A DNA stretch of 64,000 bases, taken from assembly GCA_027485795.1 (NCBI GenBank), contig JAIXQK010000130.1, positions 50,110 through 114,109 of the forward strand. The letters are read 5' to 3'. Under the pieces are notes generated by a model. It was not told the origin of the DNA, made no database searches, and was given only the letters and a program-made list of their open reading frames with translations. This DNA is from Oxalobacteraceae bacterium (GTDB taxonomy: Bacteria > Pseudomonadota > Gammaproteobacteria > Burkholderiales > Burkholderiaceae_D). Each line of letters starts with the position of its first letter. Position 1 is the stretch's first letter. Position numbers and translations under genes: made by a program. This document shows positions 17,022-28,909 of the stretch, one piece after another.

Positions 17022-18752
17022 TCAGCGAATAATCTCTGGCGTGAGCGCTTGGATGGCTTGGTAGTTGGTCAAGAATACACGCCCGTGCAGATGTTCGAGC
17101 AGATGGCTGCTCTTGAGTTTATCCATTACCGGCCCCTTGATTTCTGAAAAATGCAATGTAATCCCAGCGTCTTTCAGTCGCGCGGCAATGGTTTCCAAGC
17201 TTTCCAAAGCGCTGGCATCAATGTCGTTGACTGCAGAGCATTGAAGCAATACGTGCTCCAGATCTGGGCGGGTTGCTACCTCAGCATTAATGCGGTCTTC
17301 AATTGCCCGGGCGTTCGCAAAAAACATACTGGCGTCTACGCGCAGGCACAGTAACTTTGGGCTGATCAGGACATTGTGTCGCTGCACATTCCGAAAATAC
17401 TCGGTGCCTGGCACTAATCCAACCGTGGCGATATGCGGGCGACTGGCACGAAACAAAAACAGCGCGAGCGATGTCGCTACGCCTGTCACCAAGCCAGTTT
17501 CAACCCCGATAAACAGAGTACCCATTAATGTTGTGGCCACTGCGATGAAGTCGAGTTTCGAGAAGCGCCAGGTGGATTTCAATATCTTGAAGTCCACCAG
17601 GGAAAGTACGGCCACAATAATGGTCGCCGCCAGCGTGGCTTGCGGTAAATAAAATAGTGTTGGCGTTAACAATAGCGAAGCCAGGGTAATGCCTACCGCA
17701 GTATAGATACCTGCCGCTGGTGTGACGGCGCCCGCCTCAAAGTTAACGACAGATCGCGCAAACCCACCTGTTACAGGGAATCCGCCGGTGAATGCCGCGG
17801 ATAAATTACTGCCACCCAGAGCAATCAGCTCTTGATCGGGTTCGATACGTTGACGACGCTTGGCGGCCAGGGTTTGGCCGACCGAGACTGACTCTACAAA
17901 GCCAATCACGCTAATCAGCAGGGCAGGGACCAGCAGTTTTTGCCAGAGGTTTAAGTCCCATAAGGGTAGTGTGATCGGGGGCAGTCCTTGCGGCACGGTA
18001 CCGACTAATTTCATGCCTTGTGCTTGCCAATCCAGCTGCCATGCTAGAAGCGTCGTGAGCGCGATTGCTGCCACTGGCCCCAGTTTGGCTAGCATGTCGG
18101 CATTTTTGAGACTCAAACCGGTCTGCACCAATAAAGGCTGTAAACCTTTGCGTACCCAAAACAAAAATACGATAACGCCGGTGCCGACCATTAGCGTGAG
18201 CAGATGCACGCTAGACACTTGATGAATGAGCGAGTTCAGTAGTTCTACAAAATTGTGACCGTCCGCCTTTATACCCATGATGGTTTTCATCTGGCTGAGT
18301 GCAATCAGCAAACCAGAAGCAGAAATGAAACCAGAGATGACGGGGTGGCTCAAGAAATTAGCCAAGAAACCCAAACGAAGTAAACCCATCAGTAGCAACA
18401 AGCCACCCGATAAGAACGCCAAGGTGATGGCGACTTGCCAATACGCATGCGTACCTGCAGCAGCATGTTCGGCGACTGTCGCAGCCGTCATGATCGAGAC
18501 AACGGCGACAGGGCCTACGGCCAATACACGACTACTACCTAAAACCGCATACAAGACCAGCGGTGCCACGCTGGCATACAGGCCCACCTCGGGCGGTAGT
18601 CCCGCAAGTAAGGCATAGGCCAAACTTTGCGGGATCAACATGATGGTGACGATCAGCGCCGCCACCAAGTCTTTGGTGAAGATTTCTAGATTGTATTGAC
18701 GACCCCAAGCCAGAATCGGCAATGCCGGCAGCCAGCGTGTGGCGGTGCCCAT
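17022..18752 (-). CDS. SulP-family anion transporter with C-terminal STAS domain
   Basis: MLIPQSLAYALLAGLPPEVGLYASVAPLVLYAVLGSS; C-terminal STAS (VLLQCSAVNDIDASALESLETI). Confidence 0.95.
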   Translation of the reverse strand: MGTATRWLPALPILAWGRQYNLEIFTKDLVAALIVTIMLIPQSLAYALLAGLPPEVGLYASVAPLVLYAVLGSSRVLAVGPVAVVSIMTAATVAEHAAAGTHAYWQVAITLAFLSGGLLLLMGLLRLGFLANFLSHPVISGFISASGLLIALSQMKTIMGIKADGHNFVELLNSLIHQVSSVHLLTLMVGTGVIVFLFWVRKGLQPLLVQTGLSLKNADMLAKLGPVAAIALTTLLAWQLDWQAQGMKLVGTVPQGLPPITLPLWDLNLWQKLLVPALLISVIGFVESVSVGQTLAAKRRQRIEPDQELIALGGSNLSAAFTGGFPVTGGFARSVVNFEAGAVTPAAGIYTAVGITLASLLLTPTLFYLPQATLAATIIVAVLSLVDFKILKSTWRFSKLDFIAVATTLMGTLFIGVETGLVTGVATSLALFLFRASRPHIATVGLVPGTEYFRNVQRHNVLISPKLLCLRVDASMFFANARAIEDRINAEVATRPDLEHVLLQCSAVNDIDASALESLETIAARLKDAGITLHFSEIKGPVMDKLKSSHLLEHLHGRVFLTNYQAIQALTPEIIR

Positions 18753-18897
18753 CAGCGCACCATCGCCGGTTGTACCATCCGCTTGCAATCTCCCAACATA
18801 GCTGCCCAATAAATGGAAGGTAAAAAGCGTGCGTGATGCCGCTCTGGTTCTACCGCAGTCACTGGCTTCATATCCATGTCGTCTCTTAGCGGTGAGA

Positions 18898-19362
18898 TCA
18901 GGCGGCGTCGAGTTTGGCTTTGCGCGGGGCGTGGACAAATCGATCCATCAACTCGAAGCCCAGCATGCCGACCAGCATGGCTGCGACGAATAAGGTCGCT
19001 TTGGACTGCCCATCCGCCATGGATACCAGCGCTGGACCTGGACAAAATCCTCCCAGTCCCCAACCGGCCCCAAATAACAGGCTGCCGATCACCAAGGGCT
19101 TGTCCATTTGGTTGGTTGTCGGCAAGCGCAGTGCACCGCCCAAGAAAGTCGTGGTGCGTTTCTTGGCGAGTGCGAAAGCAAAAAAGCCCACCACAACCGC
19201 GCCACCCATGACCAGCGCTAGGGAAGGGTCCCAAGCCCCGAACAAGTCAAGAAAGCCAATCACTTTGCCTGGGTCTGTCATGCCTGACGCCATTAGGCCG
19301 ACGCCGAACATCAAGCCAACAACGAATTCGCTTATGCGGGAAAAATGGTTCTTGTTGATCAT
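18898..19362 (-). CDS. YeeE/YedE-family (DUF6691-like) sulfur-compound transporter half
   Basis: VGLMFGVGLMASGMTDPGKVIGFLDLFGAWDPSLALVMGGA. Confidence 0.9.
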   Translation of the reverse strand: MINKNHFSRISEFVVGLMFGVGLMASGMTDPGKVIGFLDLFGAWDPSLALVMGGAVVVGFFAFALAKKRTTTFLGGALRLPTTNQMDKPLVIGSLLFGAGWGLGGFCPGPALVSMADGQSKATLFVAAMLVGMLGFELMDRFVHAPRKAKLDAA

Positions 19363-19371
19363 GATGTCTCC

Positions 19372-19809
19372 TTAGATGACATGGCGTACGACGAACACCG
19401 TAACAAAGCCAGCGCCCATGAATGAGGCGGTCGCAATCAAAGAGCGGGGCGACAGACGAGACAAGCCGCAAACACCATGGCCACTGGTACAACCTGAGGC
19501 ATAGCGAGTGCCGACGCCAACCAAGAGACCGGCAACGACGATCATCCACTCCGTAGCTTCAATTCGAGGCGCATTGATGTATTCGGCCGGCACCACTGCA
19601 TGAAACACAGTAGGCGCAGCGAACATGCCCAACAGAAAAGCGATGCGCCAACTGGTATCTCCTAGCTTAGGCGGCAGCAAGCCACCCAAGATGCCACTGA
19701 TACCGAGGATACGGCCATTGATCAAAATGAAAAGTGCCGAAGCCACACCTAACAGAATGCCACCTGATAGAGATGACCATGGCGTGAAATGTGCCCAATC
19801 TAAGTTCAT
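19372..19809 (-). CDS. YeeE/YedE-family transporter half
   Basis: [75 protein letters not shown]. Confidence 0.9.
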
Positions 19810-20135
19810 GCTGATGCTCCTGTTTGCGGTCCACAAAATTGATCGAATAAAACGTTCATGATGGCCAGTGCTTGTGGGCTGGCGATTTGGTAGTAAATGT
19901 TTTTGCCTTCGCGGCGGGTCGTGACCAAGGCCTCATCACGCAGGACGGTGAGCTGCTGCGACAGGGTGGGCTGAACAATGCCCAAGGTTTCTTGTAACTC
20001 ACCTACGCGCTTTTCTTCTTGAGATAGCTGGCACAACAGGAGTAGTCGATCAGGGTTGGAGAGCACTTTCATCAATCGGCATGCTTGTCCGGCAGACGAT
20101 CTCATTTTCTCCAAGTCCAAGGTGGTTTGGTCCAT
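19806..20135 (-). CDS. BigR/SqrR-like ArsR-family persulfide-sensing repressor
   Basis: ArsR wHTH; Cys residues in LLLLCQLSQEE and FDQFCGPQ at positions expected for the BigR/SqrR sensing pair; neighbours YeeE/YedE and MBL. Confidence 0.82.
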   Translation of the reverse strand: MDQTTLDLEKMRSSAGQACRLMKVLSNPDRLLLLCQLSQEEKRVGELQETLGIVQPTLSQQLTVLRDEALVTTRREGKNIYYQIASPQALAIMNVLFDQFCGPQTGASA

Positions 20136-20165
20136 GGGAAGAATGTCCTTTTCAAAAACTGATGG

Positions 20166-20206
20166 AATATTCTATTGACAGATAAATTATCTGTCAATAG
20201 AATATT
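20166..20206. promoter_or_regulatory. perfect 20-bp inverted-repeat operator
   Basis: aatattctattgacagataa-a-ttatctgtcaatagaatatt between divergent BigR-like and MBL genes. Confidence 0.85.
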
Positions 20207-20233
20207 TATAAATTAATTCAAACGGAGCCCAAC

Positions 20234-21109
20234 ATGACCGCAAGCTCGAGCAACCCGCAGGTTCATGGCATTTTTGACCCCGCCACATGGACGGTGACCT
20301 ACGTGGTCTATGAGAAGCCGGGCTCGGCCTGCGCCATCATCGACTCGGTTTTGGACTATGACCCCAAGTCCGGCCGCACGACCCATACCTCGGCCGACAA
20401 GGTGATTGAATTTGTAAAGGCCAACAAGCTCCAGGTCGAATGGATTCTGGAAACTCATGCGCACGCTGACCACCTGACCGCAGCCCCTTACTTGAAGGCC
20501 CATCTGGGTGGCAAGACCGCGATTGGTGACCACATCACCGCAGTGCAGGGTGTGTTCAAGGACATCTTCAACCTGGAGCCGGGCTTCAAGCAAGACGGCT
20601 CGCAATTCGACCATTTGTTCAAAGACGGCGAAACCATTCAAGTGGGAGCCCTCAGTGGCCACACGATGTACGTACCGGGCCACACGCCAGCGTGCGTTGC
20701 GTATCAGTTCGGAGATGCCGTATTCGTCGGCGACACGCTGTTCATGCCGGACGTTGGTACCGCGCGATGTGATTTTCCCGGTGGCGATGCAAAAACCTTG
20801 TATGCCTCAACGAGAAAGATTTTGAGTTTGCCGCCCACCACCCGTTTGTTCATGTGCCATGACTACCCACCGAATGATCGTCCTGTGAAATTCGAGACGA
20901 CCGTGGCAGATCAGCGCGCGAATAATATTCATGTCAAAGATAGTATTTCCGAAGCAGAATTTGTGGAAATGCGTACCAAGCGCGACGCCACCTTGGAAAT
21001 GCCGGTGCTGATCTTGCCCGCAGTTCAAATCAATATTCGTGCGGGGGACTTACCACCCAAAGAAGATAACGGCGTTGCGTATGTGAAGATTCCCTTGAAC
21101 GCCTTATAA
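20234..21109 (+). CDS. MBL-fold persulfide dioxygenase/Blh-like
   Basis: ETHAHADHLTAAPYLK (HxHxDH), SGHTMYVPGHTPACVAYQFGDAVFVGDTLFMPDVGTARCDFPGGDAKTLYAS. Confidence 0.88.
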   Translation: MTASSSNPQVHGIFDPATWTVTYVVYEKPGSACAIIDSVLDYDPKSGRTTHTSADKVIEFVKANKLQVEWILETHAHADHLTAAPYLKAHLGGKTAIGDHITAVQGVFKDIFNLEPGFKQDGSQFDHLFKDGETIQVGALSGHTMYVPGHTPACVAYQFGDAVFVGDTLFMPDVGTARCDFPGGDAKTLYASTRKILSLPPTTRLFMCHDYPPNDRPVKFETTVADQRANNIHVKDSISEAEFVEMRTKRDATLEMPVLILPAVQINIRAGDLPPKEDNGVAYVKIPLNAL

Positions 21110-22009: not shown

Positions 22010-22042
22010 AAAAAGCCCGCAAACATTCGTTTGCGGGTTTTT
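22010..22042. terminator. rho-independent terminator hairpin
   Basis: aaaaagcccgcaaa-cattcg-tttgcgggttttt (arms with one mismatch). Confidence 0.8.
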
Positions 22043-22236: not shown

Positions 22237-22437
22237 TCAGACATTTACTCTGGCGGGCGAGGCGTGTAGTTGTAACCCTAGTGCAGTAACGACCTTCATG
22301 ATGGTGCCGAATTCTGGATTACCTTCAGGTGACAGCGCTTTGTAAAGGCTCTCGCGCCCCAGTCCTGTATCTCGTGCGATCTGACTCATGCCTTTGGCGC
22401 GGGCAATATCACCCAATGCTGCCGGCGGTGAGTCATC
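22237..22437 (-). pseudogene. HigA-like addiction-module antitoxin, 5'-truncated remnant
   Basis: DDSPPAALGDIARAKGMSQIARDTGLGRESLYKALSPEGNPEFGTIMKVVTALGLQLHASPARVNV*; no N-terminal part or start in frame. Confidence 0.7.
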
Positions 22438-22624: not shown

Positions 22625-23842
22625 ATGCGAACTAAAGACTTTCATTCGGAAAAAGATGCTCTACGGATCTCACAGGCTGCGTGGTCATTTGCCACCCGCC
22701 GAGTTCCGGTGAGTGCTGCAGCCTTGCTGCTGCCACCGGTTGGCAAGCCTGAAACGGGCGACCTGATTTTGGCTGCGGTGGATTCCCTCGGACAGCACCC
22801 GGGACTGCAATTACCGAGTGGTCGACGCATGCAAATGTTTCCAGGTGATGAGATCGTGGTGGCCTACGGCAACCGCTATGCCTCGAATCAATTCGAATCC
22901 GAGGTACCCAACACCCTCGGACCATGCCACCTTTCTGCAGGTGGCGGCATCGCCTCTCGCGTCACGTCTTGGCACGTGAGGATGAAGAGTCCAACGCAGA
23001 TCACGCCGATCGGCCTGCTGGCAAACAACCAGGGTCGGCGCATTAACCTGCGCGACTACGCACTTCCAACGCTAATGCGTTTTCCATCCAACCATCTGAC
23101 GACGATTGCCGTGGTCGGTACCGGTATGGATTCGGGCAAGACGCAAAGCTGCGCTTACTTGGTCAGAGGTCTGATCGCTGCCGGGCTACGGGTGGCTTAC
23201 ATCAAGATCACCGGTACCGGCGCGGGCGCGGATACCTGGTTGCTCAAAGACGCTGGGGCTTCGCCGGTGCTGGATTTCACCGATGCCGGAATGTCCACAA
23301 CCTATCTTGCACCCCTGTCGCAGATCGAAACTGCCCTTGTGTCTTTATTGGCGCATGCAGCGAACGAGAGCGTCGATGCAGCCGTAGTAGAAATCGCTGA
23401 TGGTGTTTTGCAGATTGAAACCTCAGCGCTGCTGAAGTCTGAGGTATTCGCGTCTCTCGTGGGTGGGTTGATGATGGCATCGCAAGATTCGATGGGTGCC
23501 AGCGCCGGCGTGCACTGGCTCAAGCAAAACGCGCGTCCGCCGGTACTGGGCCTGTGCGGCATCATTTCTGCCGCACCTCTGCAAGCACGTGAAGCAACGC
23601 AAGCACTTGGCCTGACGGTCTACGACCGTCTAGGCCTTGCCAATCCGAGGAATGCAATGGCGATTCTTGCGGGGGCCCAACAACACATGGAGATACTGCG
23701 AGCAACAGAACCCACCTTGGCAAGTCGCATCGTCGACATCAATGGAGAAGCCTATGGAAACAAACAGGATGACGCCAGCACGCTCGGCCGTCGTTGGATG
23801 GCACCTGCCACAGGGAGTACTCCTCCGCCGGGTGCTACGTAG
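22625..23842 (+). CDS. P-loop NTPase-containing protein, DUF1611-like
   Basis: Walker A-like VVGTGMDSGKTQSCAYLVRGLIAAGLRVAYIKITGTG; unusual N-terminal domain. Confidence 0.65.
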   Translation: MRTKDFHSEKDALRISQAAWSFATRRVPVSAAALLLPPVGKPETGDLILAAVDSLGQHPGLQLPSGRRMQMFPGDEIVVAYGNRYASNQFESEVPNTLGPCHLSAGGGIASRVTSWHVRMKSPTQITPIGLLANNQGRRINLRDYALPTLMRFPSNHLTTIAVVGTGMDSGKTQSCAYLVRGLIAAGLRVAYIKITGTGAGADTWLLKDAGASPVLDFTDAGMSTTYLAPLSQIETALVSLLAHAANESVDAAVVEIADGVLQIETSALLKSEVFASLVGGLMMASQDSMGASAGVHWLKQNARPPVLGLCGIISAAPLQAREATQALGLTVYDRLGLANPRNAMAILAGAQQHMEILRATEPTLASRIVDINGEAYGNKQDDASTLGRRWMAPATGSTPPPGAT

Positions 23843-24620
23843 TGATCCCACCAACGAATACTTACTGTATCGCCCGACGGGCGCCTCGATCGACAGTCCG
23901 CTACTAGTGGTGGTTTTAGGCGTTAGCCGCCATTGGCAGCAACAGGTTGCTGCATTCATTCCCGCCTGCGAGCGGCTTGGCGTCACGCTACTGTCACCCA
24001 GCATGGGTGGTGCTGTACGCGCTGGCTACCGTAGCATCGGGCGCCAAGAACACCGTGCCGATGAATTACTGCACGATTGCCTGCGTGAGGTGAGCCTGCA
24101 CACCGGTATTGATGCTACGCGCTTTCGGCTGTTCGGCCACTCATCGGGGGCTCAGTTTGCACACCGCTACCTGATGGCGCATCCCCATCGTGTGGAGTCC
24201 GCCGTGATTGCATGCGCGCGCTGGTACACCTTTCCCGATACTGCACGTAAGTTCCCCTTCGGTATTCGTCCGACGAAGCGTTTGCCGGACCTCGCGTTCA
24301 ATCCGGAGCAGTATCTGCGCGTGCGAATGATCGTCTTGGACGGCACTTTGGATACCGAAGAAGAAGTGTTTCGTCACAGTGATCAGATCAGCGCCCAACA
24401 AGGAAAGAATCGTTTGGAGCGCGCCCGGCGTTGGGTAGCGGCGATGCGTGCTCAAGCGCAGGTGCATGCCATGCCGCCCATGATCGAGCTGATCGAAATC
24501 GAAGGGGTCGGCCACCATTTCGGTCCTTTGTGCCGTGAAGGCCGTCTCGTTCAACGCGTGTTCTGGTCGCTATTTGGTGCCACCGTTGACGAGGAGAGTG
24601 TAAGCACCCAGCACCAATAG
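23754..24620 (+). CDS. alpha/beta hydrolase
   Basis: GHSSGAQFAHRYLMAHPHRVESAVIACARWYTFPD (GxSxG); start overlaps the end of the preceding CDS. Confidence 0.82.
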   Translation: METNRMTPARSAVVGWHLPQGVLLRRVLRSDPTNEYLLYRPTGASIDSPLLVVVLGVSRHWQQQVAAFIPACERLGVTLLSPSMGGAVRAGYRSIGRQEHRADELLHDCLREVSLHTGIDATRFRLFGHSSGAQFAHRYLMAHPHRVESAVIACARWYTFPDTARKFPFGIRPTKRLPDLAFNPEQYLRVRMIVLDGTLDTEEEVFRHSDQISAQQGKNRLERARRWVAAMRAQAQVHAMPPMIELIEIEGVGHHFGPLCREGRLVQRVFWSLFGATVDEESVSTQHQ

Positions 24621-24685
24621 CGACCTCGAGTCGCTATCCCCACTAATGCGATCAGTCTGTACAAACTATCGCCAAGGATAAAAAT

Positions 24686-25873
24686 ATGAAGACAAGTTCA
24701 GAGCATGTCGATTGGGGATTTCCTGATGATTCGGCAGAGACAGTATCCAGCCCACGCTCAGGTAGTGGGCCGAGTGCGCGCCCTGCAGGTGTGAGCAGGC
24801 GATTAATTCGGTGGATCGTTATCGTGCTCACCCTTACGATGCTCGTTATCGCACTATGGGTGTTCAGCACACACCGTGCGCAGAATGTTATCTCGCGTAA
24901 TGCTTTTGTGAAGACGGAGTTGACTAACGTTGGCGCCCGTTTTGATGGTCGCGTTGCATCTGTAGAAGTAACGCCAGGCACTCGCGTCAATGCCGGACAA
25001 ATCATTGCCCGTCTGGACGATGGCCATTTACGCGCTCAAGAAGTGGAAGCTACGGCGAATATTGCATCGCTGGAGCGCACGCGTGTGCAAGAGACTGCCG
25101 CTATCGAACAAGAGCGCAGAACACTGGCGGTAGCTTACCAAGAGGCCAAAGCACGCGCGGAGGCGACTCGCTCAGAGGTACAAGCAGCGAAAATACGCGT
25201 CGCTGAAACGCAGGAGTACTGGCGCATCCGCCAAGAGCTTTCCAAGAGCGGCATGATTTCAGCTGAGGCTTTGCGCGAAGCGAATTTAAAGAGGCAACTC
25301 GCACTAGAGCAACTGGCTGCTGCGCAAAGCAACGCAAGTGCTACTGAGGCCGCCGTGCGAAACGCGGAACTCAACATTTCGGGTATTGCCATCCGCCAGC
25401 AGCGGCTTGGTATCTTGTCTTCTGAAATCAATGTAGCAAAAGGCAAATTGGCGCGCGTACAGGCAGATCTGGCGTCAACCATCATCAAGGCCCCGACCGA
25501 CGGTACGATCGTTCGCTGGCTCGTTAACTCGGGTGGGTCGATCAGGGTAGGGACTCCGATCGTGAATATGGTGATCGGCAGCGATCGATGGGTTGAAGCG
25601 TGGATTGATGAAGATGAACTTGAATATGTTCATATCGGAAGCCCCGCCATGGTGTCGTTTCCCTCGCTACCAGGAAAGCAATTCGAGGGCGTGATTGAAA
25701 GAGTCGGCGTTACCACCGACCTTGAAGAGCCCGTCGTTGCCGTGCCCGAGCAACGCACCAACCGAATTCGCAGCGCACCCATTATTGCGGTCATCGTCAG
25801 ATTGTCGAATCCGCCGAGCACATTGCTACCGGGGCTATCGGCGATCGTCGACATCAATCGAAATGGGTTGTAA
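24686..25873 (+). CDS. HlyD/EmrA-family membrane fusion (adaptor) protein
   Basis: One TM helix, V..VEVTPGTRVNAGQIIARLDD lipoyl half, coiled coil, IIKAPTDGTIVRWLVNSGGSIRVGTPIVNMV. Confidence 0.92.
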   Translation: MKTSSEHVDWGFPDDSAETVSSPRSGSGPSARPAGVSRRLIRWIVIVLTLTMLVIALWVFSTHRAQNVISRNAFVKTELTNVGARFDGRVASVEVTPGTRVNAGQIIARLDDGHLRAQEVEATANIASLERTRVQETAAIEQERRTLAVAYQEAKARAEATRSEVQAAKIRVAETQEYWRIRQELSKSGMISAEALREANLKRQLALEQLAAAQSNASATEAAVRNAELNISGIAIRQQRLGILSSEINVAKGKLARVQADLASTIIKAPTDGTIVRWLVNSGGSIRVGTPIVNMVIGSDRWVEAWIDEDELEYVHIGSPAMVSFPSLPGKQFEGVIERVGVTTDLEEPVVAVPEQRTNRIRSAPIIAVIVRLSNPPSTLLPGLSAIVDINRNGL

Positions 25874-27821
25874 TTCCGTGCCACTCTCAACTTCCACAGG
25901 TGTGCCTGAACCCATCGTTCAGGCAACAACGATGGCAGATACCAAGAAGGCTGTCGGATGGTTAGATGGCTTCAGTATCTTGCGCGGCAAAGGGTACCTC
26001 TCCACCACAGACCTGGCGATCTTGACTCTGGTGGCGACGTTCTCGCTGATGGCTTTCACTGCACGCATCGTGTCTACACCGGGGCTGAACTTATCGGCAG
26101 GATCTTTCCTAAGCCCGCTAATGAGCCTAGGACATTTTCTGAACGCTGTGGTCACGCTCGAATGGGTGCCTCTGCTCGATCGGCACGCGGTGATCTACGT
26201 CATGCTACTGCCGACGGCAGCACTGTTAATCACGCTGGCGCGTCTGACGTTCGGCTTGCGGGTGCTGGGCTTTCGCTCGGTGCTGATTGCCGTCGGATTT
26301 CAGGAAGTTGGTTTGGGTCCCAGTCTGTTGCTGATCGCTGTCGTGGTAGGAGTCATTGCTACGTTGCGACCATGGATGCGGCGTATACGTCTACCGCTTT
26401 ACGCTCGTATCTCGCTGATCCTTGCGATTACCGCTGGCATACAAATTCTATTTTTAATGGTCGGTTCCTGGCAGCGATCACACACATTTTTTAACTTGGC
26501 TTTTTTCCCCGTGATCATTCTGGCGATGATGGCCGAGGGTATTGCCGGAACGCTGGATCAGAACCGCCCCGCGACAGCAGCCTGGCGTTTGGGCTGGACA
26601 CTTGCCCTCGCACTCCTGCTGTATGGGATCATGAATTTTGGTCCTTTTCTGAAGCTGCTACTACGAGCCCCGGAGCTGATGATTTTGCAGATCGTAGCGA
26701 TTGTATTGATTTCTGAGTTTCTGGATTTTCGTCTACTGCAGGATTGGCAAAACCACGCAACCACATTGCTATCCCGATTTGCATCCGACTCGGTGCAGCA
26801 TCCCATCCAACATCGTAAAAAGCGCGTGGCAGTGGTTCGCAACAAAACCGCACATGGCACGATAGGGCGGCTGGGGCCGCAAGCGAACGAGGCTGAGCGG
26901 AACGCCTCACTTCAGCACCTGATCGATGCACTTCGTGAGCAAGGTTACTCGGTCAAGCTATTCGAGGGAGATATGACGCTACTGCGGGAGCTGCGCAAGT
27001 TTCTGCCGCCGCATCCGCGCACCGGTGCACCGGGGGGTGTCGTGCTCAATATGAGTAACGGTATCCAGGGCATAGGCCGTCAGGTACATGTGCCTTCACT
27101 GCTTGAGATGGCCGGCGTTGCATACACGGGCGCCGACCCCCTGACGCAGTCTTGCCTGTGCGATCGCATTGCCTTGCTCTCACGCCTGAAAGCACTTGGA
27201 CTACCTGTACCGGACTTCAGAATCATCACGCATTGGCGTCACGAGCCACCGGATCTGCCGTTTCCCATGGTGCTACGCACACGTGACGACGCGGATGACA
27301 CACGATTGGTCGTGCGAACACCCGATGAGTATTCTGGTGCGCTGTCCCATTTGAGTTCAGTGCAATCACGCGACATCCTGTGCGAAGCATGGCTCGAGGG
27401 TACCTTGATCAGCATTGGCGTACTGGGCAATGATCGCCTCAGGTGTCTGCCCATTGCATCCTTTAATCCCAGCGGTCGATATTTCGAATCTCCAGTATCC
27501 GTCGATGAGCCGCAGGCACAGCACTATCGATCACTTGCGCTGCGCACATTTAGATCCATCGGCTGTCGAGACTTTGCGCGTGTGGATATGGTGCTTGATC
27601 GCCAAGGCCAAGCGCATTTGGTCGGCATCTATACCAACACGATTCTAGAAAAGCGCGGCGCTGTTGCCGTCATGGCTCAAGCAGCAGGATTCAGTTGGCC
27701 ACAGCTTATGGGTACCATTGTCGAGCTCGCTGGTGCACGCTGCGGGGTAGATTGGGGCTCCTCCGCACAAGCGATGGTGTCCGCCGAATCGACAGCGAAG
27801 CCGCGCATGATGGGCGCATGA
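25863..27821 (+). CDS. fusion of 7TM (UUP1-like) membrane domain and D-Ala-D-Ala-ligase-like ATP-grasp domain
   Basis: Multiple TM helices (about 26000-26760) then RVAVVRNKTAHG...GGVVLNMSNGIQGIGRQVHVPSLLEMAGVAYTGADPLTQSCLCDRIALLSRLKALGLPVPDF...EAWLEGTLISIGVLG...CRDFARVDMVLDRQGQAHLVGIYTNT. Confidence 0.8.
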   Translation: MGCNSVPLSTSTGVPEPIVQATTMADTKKAVGWLDGFSILRGKGYLSTTDLAILTLVATFSLMAFTARIVSTPGLNLSAGSFLSPLMSLGHFLNAVVTLEWVPLLDRHAVIYVMLLPTAALLITLARLTFGLRVLGFRSVLIAVGFQEVGLGPSLLLIAVVVGVIATLRPWMRRIRLPLYARISLILAITAGIQILFLMVGSWQRSHTFFNLAFFPVIILAMMAEGIAGTLDQNRPATAAWRLGWTLALALLLYGIMNFGPFLKLLLRAPELMILQIVAIVLISEFLDFRLLQDWQNHATTLLSRFASDSVQHPIQHRKKRVAVVRNKTAHGTIGRLGPQANEAERNASLQHLIDALREQGYSVKLFEGDMTLLRELRKFLPPHPRTGAPGGVVLNMSNGIQGIGRQVHVPSLLEMAGVAYTGADPLTQSCLCDRIALLSRLKALGLPVPDFRIITHWRHEPPDLPFPMVLRTRDDADDTRLVVRTPDEYSGALSHLSSVQSRDILCEAWLEGTLISIGVLGNDRLRCLPIASFNPSGRYFESPVSVDEPQAQHYRSLALRTFRSIGCRDFARVDMVLDRQGQAHLVGIYTNTILEKRGAVAVMAQAAGFSWPQLMGTIVELAGARCGVDWGSSAQAMVSAESTAKPRMMGA

Positions 27822-28909
27822 CGCCAACACTCCAAAACTTTCGCCAACGGGCTCGACTAGCTCACTGGTTGTCGCTGCACCTGCTGGTTAGCATCCTAAT
27901 TCTTGTATTAGGTGTATTAGGGGTACTAGGGGTACCAAAGCTAGCAGAGGCAACCGATCTGACATGGCAACCTGCGACATGCAGAAACGATGTTGCCATC
28001 GCAGATTCAAACACAACAATATCGACTGCGCCAGTCTTCGTTAATGCCAATCTGGCGCGCGAAGTACTCAAGACACCAGGCACCGGTCGTCTGCAAATCA
28101 ACAGCCTGCAGGGCAAGCCTCTCACCGTCCATGTGTTTCGCCCTAGTCAGTTCGATTCGTTAACAGGGCGCATCTGGTTTGTAATGCACGGCACCGGCCG
28201 CGACGCCGAGCGTTATCTGAAAACTGCTGCGCCAGTAGCGGAGCGCCATCAGGTACTGGTTGTGGTTCTTGAGTTCTCGCGCAACGACTATCCCACCGGT
28301 GACACATATACCTTGGGTGTGGTGACCCGCGGCCGGGTGGATGATCATGCAGCCGAGGAGGGCCGCTGGCGCAACCCGCGACAAACACCCTACATGGAGA
28401 TTGAACGGACCTTCAGTGCGGTCAGGGAAGCGCTGCAAAGCCGGCAGCCAGGCTACTTCCTATTTGGCCATAGCGCGGGTGCCCAGTTCGTCCACCGCCT
28501 ATTGAGCTTTGTTCGCTGCCCGAGAGTGCTGAAGGCGGTGGCGGCCAATGCGGGTTGGTACACCTTACCAACCGTGGACAAAAAGTGGCCGCCATTTCCC
28601 TACAGCTTGCGCGGAGCATCGCGTGAGTTTCAGGATCCTGGCCAGGTACTTGCTGCACCGCTCACTGTCTTGTTAGGTACTAGAGATACACGAGGCAAAG
28701 AAGAAGATACCAATCTACGTGGGACCGAAGGTGCGATAGTGCAGGGCGCTAATCGGCTTCAGCGAGGCATAACCTACTACGAGGTAGGACAGCAAGCTGC
28801 CCACAGTGCAAACAGGCCTTTCGCTTGGAAAGTTCAACTTGTGCCAGGTGCAGGACATGAGGTTGCCGAGGTCATCGCGCCGGCGGGGCAATTGCTATTT
28901 GCACCTTAG
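27818..28909 (+). CDS. exported alpha/beta hydrolase
   Basis: N-terminal hydrophobic leader, FLFGHSAGAQFVHRLLSF (GxSxG), WFVMHGTGRDAERYL; ATGA overlap with the upstream stop. Confidence 0.8.
   Translation: MTPTLQNFRQRARLAHWLSLHLLVSILILVLGVLGVLGVPKLAEATDLTWQPATCRNDVAIADSNTTISTAPVFVNANLAREVLKTPGTGRLQINSLQGKPLTVHVFRPSQFDSLTGRIWFVMHGTGRDAERYLKTAAPVAERHQVLVVVLEFSRNDYPTGDTYTLGVVTRGRVDDHAAEEGRWRNPRQTPYMEIERTFSAVREALQSRQPGYFLFGHSAGAQFVHRLLSFVRCPRVLKAVAANAGWYTLPTVDKKWPPFPYSLRGASREFQDPGQVLAAPLTVLLGTRDTRGKEEDTNLRGTEGAIVQGANRLQRGITYYEVGQQAAHSANRPFAWKVQLVPGAGHEVAEVIAPAGQLLFAP

Follow-up and report, generated by a model that had tools for sequence, protein, structure and literature searches.

A rare conserved operon combining a BioD/DUF1611-like P-loop protein, two alpha/beta hydrolases and HlyD with a 7TM protein fused to an ATP-grasp domain that has lost its catalytic residues

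The window, by which we mean the whole stretch of 64,000 nucleotides that was analysed, carries within positions 22625-28909 five open reading frames, all on the plus strand, in the order P-loop protein, hydrolase 1, HlyD, 7TM::ATP-grasp fusion and hydrolase 2. The first gene (22625-23842) encodes a BioD/MobB/DUF1611-like SIMIBI P-loop protein, designated PLOOP; the second (23754-24620) an alpha/beta hydrolase lacking a signal peptide, ABH1; the third (24686-25873) an HlyD/EmrA-like periplasmic adaptor; the fourth (25863-27821) the fusion; and the fifth (27818-28909) a second alpha/beta hydrolase, ABH2, which is predicted to be secreted or anchored. ABH1 starts 89 nt inside the PLOOP gene, the ATG of the fusion at 25863 creates an 11-nt overlap with the HlyD stop, and ATGA is common to the stop of the fusion and the start of ABH2. 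These coordinates and overlaps bear out an earlier note on this DNA, which had described five tightly coupled coding sequences on the same strand, and its view that the genes form one unit also held, since the genes are co-conserved in other genomes, as seen from gene order and the P-loop tree described below. Because this order is kept across other lineages and purifying selection acts on each of the five genes (dN/dS 0.06-0.23 against three close loci, L065, L067 and L069), the arrangement is not due to chance. A terminator-like hairpin upstream of the operon (22011-22042, plus strand) is weak, its scan count not being above that of shuffles, and the search for a dedicated promoter gave no plus-strand site upstream of the P-loop gene, with scan counts close to the shuffle mean.

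The AF2 model of PLOOP (pLDDT 90.4) consists of a SIMIBI P-loop domain preceded by a beta-rich N-terminal domain (approximately residues 30-155) that reached no Pfam cut-off. The Walker A motif (GTGMDSGKT, 23117-23143, plus strand) is intact, and its residues G165, G171 and K172 are invariant among 50 aligned relatives; the protein has both the motif and the fold of a SIMIBI P-loop NTPase. When the model was searched with Foldseek, the top PDB matches were SRP54, MeaB and dethiobiotin synthetases, the best target-normalised scores being those of BioD (0.62-0.63; 3of5 with TMt 0.63). Family models are less decisive: in Pfam, MobB was exactly at its cut-off and AAA_26 below it, and the NCBIfam equivalogs mobB (25.7 against a cut-off of 76.2) and bioD (13.5 against 83.3) were not reached. 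PLOOP has the P-loop fold and motif in common with the SIMIBI proteins DUF1611 (PF07755), BioD and MobB, but differs from DUF1611 in its own N-terminal domain and in scoring 14.7 bits against a gathering cut-off of 25, a shortfall for which we rejected it as a clean DUF1611 member. The names given to its relatives in RefSeq are DUF1611 or dethiobiotin synthase, a Pfam search of the window's own genome gave no DUF1611, and our search of the literature on DUF1611 gave nothing useful. The Walker A motif has been lost in the P-loop homologues L034 and L036-L039.

The two hydrolases gave weak alpha/beta hydrolase matches in Pfam and NCBIfam. In 44 of 44 aligned sequences, Ser, Asp and His are invariant at the positions that we read from the alignment as a catalytic triad (predicted as S130/D200/H254 in ABH1 and S219/D290/H347 in ABH2), and a QGxxRxxR motif is invariant in the same set. 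Both weakly resemble PHB-depolymerase-type esterases and look more esterase-like than amidase-like. In the loci with the window's layout, a hydrophobic N-terminal segment is absent from ABH1 and present in ABH2, which suggests that the former would act inside the cell and the latter outside.

The adaptor matches HlyD_3 with 63.5 bits (cut-off 22.2), the EmrA subfamily model staying below cut-off. The 7TM part of the fusion (25998-26735, plus strand) matches PF14402, 7TM_transglut, with 66.1 bits against a cut-off of 25 and is devoid of the transglutaminase domain. The ATP-grasp part (26814-27761, plus strand) has the D-Ala-D-Ala ligase fold, the Pfam score for Dala_Dala_lig_C being 49.6 bits against 24; since the AF2 model of the whole fusion was weak (pLDDT 68.5), we used only this half of it, and Foldseek comparison with Ddl structures gave TM-scores up to 0.84 on target length. 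For the catalytic site we aligned ten fusion proteins with nine relatives whose sites are intact, namely L040-L044 from rhizobial plasmids and L053-L056. A profile built from the ten aligns with solved D-Ala-D-Ala ligases, and in 10/10 other residues stand in place of the phosphate-binding Lys of VVKP, the DK-motif Lys and the metal ligands of E-x-N, and the omega loop is missing; at the Mg-binding E-x-N position the window's protein reads G-I-Y (27624-27632, plus strand). E-x-N and omega loop are intact in the rhizobial and GGT-linked relatives, and most fusion proteins retain Arg and Asp in the ARVD motif. The fusion thus has the whole Ddl fold in common with Ddl and differs from it in its lost catalytic residues and its joining to a 7TM domain. 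Judging from these sequences, the ATP-grasp domain is almost certainly a pseudoenzyme, and with neither ATP lysines nor omega loop nor E-x-N left, ligase activity of the fusion is very unlikely.

This result bears directly on the earlier note, in which the fusion was an active ligase whose peptide-like metabolite would be tailored by the hydrolases and exported through HlyD and the 7TM domain. The kept Ddl fold, the purifying selection on the ATP-grasp part by itself (dN/dS 0.12-0.16 against the same three loci) and the close relatives with intact sites beside gamma-glutamyltransferase (GGT) genes are what such a model would call for, but the disappearance of both lysines, omega loop and metal ligands from every fusion protein makes it highly improbable. 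The note had itself named the loss of ATP/Mg-binding residues as a finding that would speak against a biosynthetic role, and this loss is what we observed in the ATP-grasp domain of the fusion; the assignment as a ligase is accordingly not supported.

Clusters of GGT, 7TM and ATP-grasp genes in rhizobia and elsewhere, such as that of a Bradyrhizobium plasmid (L040, 6857-10508), have 7TM and ATP-grasp parts homologous to those of the window, but their ATP-grasp is intact, is encoded separately from the 7TM protein in L040, and is accompanied by GGT instead of the P-loop protein and alpha/beta hydrolases. Related intact ATP-grasp genes are present on rhizobial plasmids, lying in NGR234 near a CapA gene, and in L053 (6365-10248) the ATP-grasp is fused to an M20 peptidase and adjoins a GGT gene.

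The rlo operon of Pseudomonas aeruginosa, in which loss of rloB or rloC rescues the loss of secreted proteases, likewise combines a PF14402-type 7TM protein, an ATP-grasp protein and a secreted hydrolase (RloA/RloB/RloC; PMC12239564). By analogy, the window's genes might be an envelope signalling or stress module whose fusion acts as receptor or regulator, with PLOOP and the hydrolases setting the level of its ligand; a pseudoenzyme would suit such a sensing role, as would the pairing of 7TM and ATP-grasp in the rlo operon (PMC12239564). However, in contrast with Rlo, the 7TM and ATP-grasp parts are fused here and the ATP-grasp is dead, neither an inactive transglutaminase domain nor a retropepsin partner was found in the five proteins, the operon adds the P-loop protein, HlyD and alpha/beta hydrolases, and the constant company of HlyD and the 7TM protein, described below, points to transport. 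We regard a module of this kind as unlikely.

We examined the distribution of the family with PLOOP as the query. In a first search, 8 of 399 genomes of the order, counting that of the window, were seen to encode relatives, and some of these relatives have lost Walker A. A scan of a genome collection with an alignment of five P-loop sequences then confirmed 335 stretches as relatives, of which the best 80 loci were returned, these being selected by similarity to the query and not independent of each other. The exact order of the window (type A) was found in 7 of these best 80 neighbourhoods (L065, L067, L068, L069, L071, L072 and L073) in addition to the window. L075 is similar except that no ABH1 was called; in L076, a cyanophycinase above the curated cut-off lies directly downstream of the fusion in the place of ABH2, and in L078 this place is occupied by an Asp/Asn-hydroxylase-like gene. 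Contig ends truncate further type A copies in L066, L070, L074 and on the reverse strand of L106. Type A and its variants occur in Oxalobacteraceae, Nitrosomonas, Methylococcaceae, an Acidobacteria isolate, Myxococcota, Halieaceae and Planctomycetota, and several of the carriers are MAGs. Though carriers span several phyla, the fusion was found in 6 of 295 genomes of the window's family, all in one genus, and the P-loop gene in 3 of 399 genomes of the phylum; this patchy distribution is best explained by horizontal transfer. That a real, conserved and rare operon is present here, and that its ATP-grasp domain has lost the catalytic residues, are both well supported.

Other relatives have different layouts. 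In type B, the P-loop gene is followed by an ABC exporter, often then by ABH1, and sometimes accompanied by a porin or a two-component system; an ABC match was present within 9 kb in 61 of the best 80 neighbourhoods. In type C, found in Paracoccus and its relatives, the P-loop gene is followed by a type-I-secretion ABC gene, an HlyD-like adaptor and a CphA-like ATP-grasp and/or CapA. The loci L152 and L153 on Paracoccus plasmids are of a hydrolase/P-loop/ABC type, with an S8 peptidase and a sigma factor nearby and a possible anti-sigma factor in L152, and in L151, on a Sulfitobacter plasmid, two 2OG-oxygenase-like genes (TIGR02466, Asp/Asn hydroxylase) lie upstream of the P-loop and ABC genes. 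The histidine kinase and response regulator, ABC exporter, hydrolase and porin of many ABC-type loci might be taken for a defence or detoxification system in which a toxic compound is sensed by the two-component system, exported and hydrolysed. We consider this improbable for the window, as two-component genes are absent beside type A loci and no PADLOC model, these being anti-phage models only, was matched. The P-loop protein is the hub of the gene family and the likely enzyme, and as the one constant element of all layouts it is the protein to which the synthetic step would best be assigned; the earlier note, which had treated it as an accessory, has to be revised on this point.

Among P-loop genes with a readable 3.5 kb downstream, an ABC exporter was found in 49, the 7TM fusion in 11, both in none and neither in 10. 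HlyD accompanied the 7TM fusion in 11 of 11 cases and the ABC exporter in 1 of 49 (Fisher p = 1.6e-7 for the downstream-gene counts, a value that overstates independence because the loci are related). In a quick maximum-likelihood tree, the P-loop proteins of type A, including that of the type A copy in L106, formed one clade (SH-aLRT 99), and the pattern reads as a single exchange of exporter on this clade. HlyD and the 7TM::pseudo-ATP-grasp fusion thus appear to stand where relatives have an ABC exporter, a view supported by position and mutual exclusion. The suggestion of the earlier note that the 7TM domain substitutes for a conventional transporter fits this mutual exclusion, while transport as such is something we infer. 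To our knowledge, no transport function is known for PF14402 7TM domains.

The link to amide-bond chemistry drawn in the earlier note found support in related loci, though through enzymes other than the fusion. As compared with a control of 114 genomes belonging to one class only, a CphA-like ATP-grasp occurred in 8 of the 80 P-loop loci (1.30 Mb in total) against 13 matches in the control, CapA in 8 of the 80 against 21, and a YheC/D ATP-grasp gene in 4 loci with type A genes against none. In L138, GGT is encoded upstream of the P-loop gene, and in L123 (14823-17804) and L126 (14777-17950) the CphA-like ATP-grasp is fused to CapA, with a dead Mur region. From 12 P-loop-linked CphA-like proteins, the ATP-grasp core could be aligned for ten and the Mur region for eleven; the ATP-grasp lysine and E-x-N are kept in 10/10, the L082 protein has E-x-N, 11/11 have no Walker A in the Mur region, and the homologue in L073 is without the ATP-grasp core. 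Since the Mur Walker A is also missing from one CphA gene of the window's own genome, a dead Mur region is no distinguishing mark of the CphA-like proteins at P-loop loci. Enzymes of the cyanophycin system (CphA, cyanophycinase) adjoin related P-loop genes elsewhere, and none is found in the window's operon; the CphA pair of its own genome is on another contig, and we rejected the genome's CapA and CphA genes as parts of the unit, these being located on other contigs. Our literature searches gave nothing useful, either for CphA combined with PGA_cap or DUF1854 or for the combination of GGT, 7TM and ATP-grasp; an amidoligase paper by Iyer of 2009 may treat such neighbourhoods.

Because CphA-like ATP-grasps, CapA, cyanophycinase or GGT occur at other P-loop loci, an amino-acid-derived product would be our best guess by analogy, and since most ABC-type loci have no ATP-grasp nearby, this link may concern some branches only. 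The absence of cyanophycin-type genes from most ABC loci, together with the weak resemblance of the hydrolases to esterases, might instead indicate that an ester- or lactone-type small molecule (a signal, a siderophore-like or an acyl compound) is made and exported with no relation to amino-acid polymers, but amide-bond enzymes of several unrelated kinds are enriched beside P-loop genes, which renders this distinctly unlikely.

The operon's apparent task is to produce an amino-acid-related compound, trim it and export it, and we tentatively propose, as a plausible reading that falls short of being probable, a horizontally mobile operon for synthesis, trimming and export centred on the BioD/DUF1611-like P-loop enzyme, whose chemistry, product, direction and gating we infer. 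In the proposed scheme, PLOOP would use ATP or GTP in the cytoplasm to activate an amino-acid-derived molecule at a carboxylate or amine, and ABH1 would hydrolyse faulty or surplus product inside the cell. HlyD and the 7TM::pseudo-ATP-grasp fusion would provide the route across inner membrane and periplasm, a task that falls to an ABC exporter in most relatives; the ATP-grasp domain would have ceased to ligate and may bind a ligand and gate or sense transport, and the secreted ABH2 would trim or release the product outside. It counts against this scheme that the window contains no active ligase except possibly PLOOP. A bolder version, which we consider a long shot, would see here a previously undescribed family of polymer or peptide exporters in which ligation by a SIMIBI P-loop protein replaces the Mur step of CphA, and in which, in the window's clade, the ABC exporter has given way to HlyD and a 7TM receptor-transporter, with a dead Ddl domain as its gate.

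With its 335 confirmed relatives, the family is uncharacterised but testable, having a fixed core and swappable exporters, and it offers a natural, clade-wide case in which an ATP-grasp ligase has joined a 7TM domain and has, in all probability, become a pseudoenzyme. Should its product prove to be an amide-linked exopolymer or peptide, the operon would represent an added export route for cyanophycin- or polyglutamate-like chemistry.

The region upstream of the operon also contains, at 22237-22416 on the minus strand, a short HTH ORF resembling the antitoxin of an addiction module, apparently without a toxin partner. Farther upstream, 17022-21109 is a likely sulfur-handling island with a SulP-type transporter, two YeeE/YedE-like proteins and an ArsR-type regulator, all called by reading the ORFs, and a metallo-beta-lactamase-fold protein which, on the basis of a domain scan, resembles persulfide dioxygenase.
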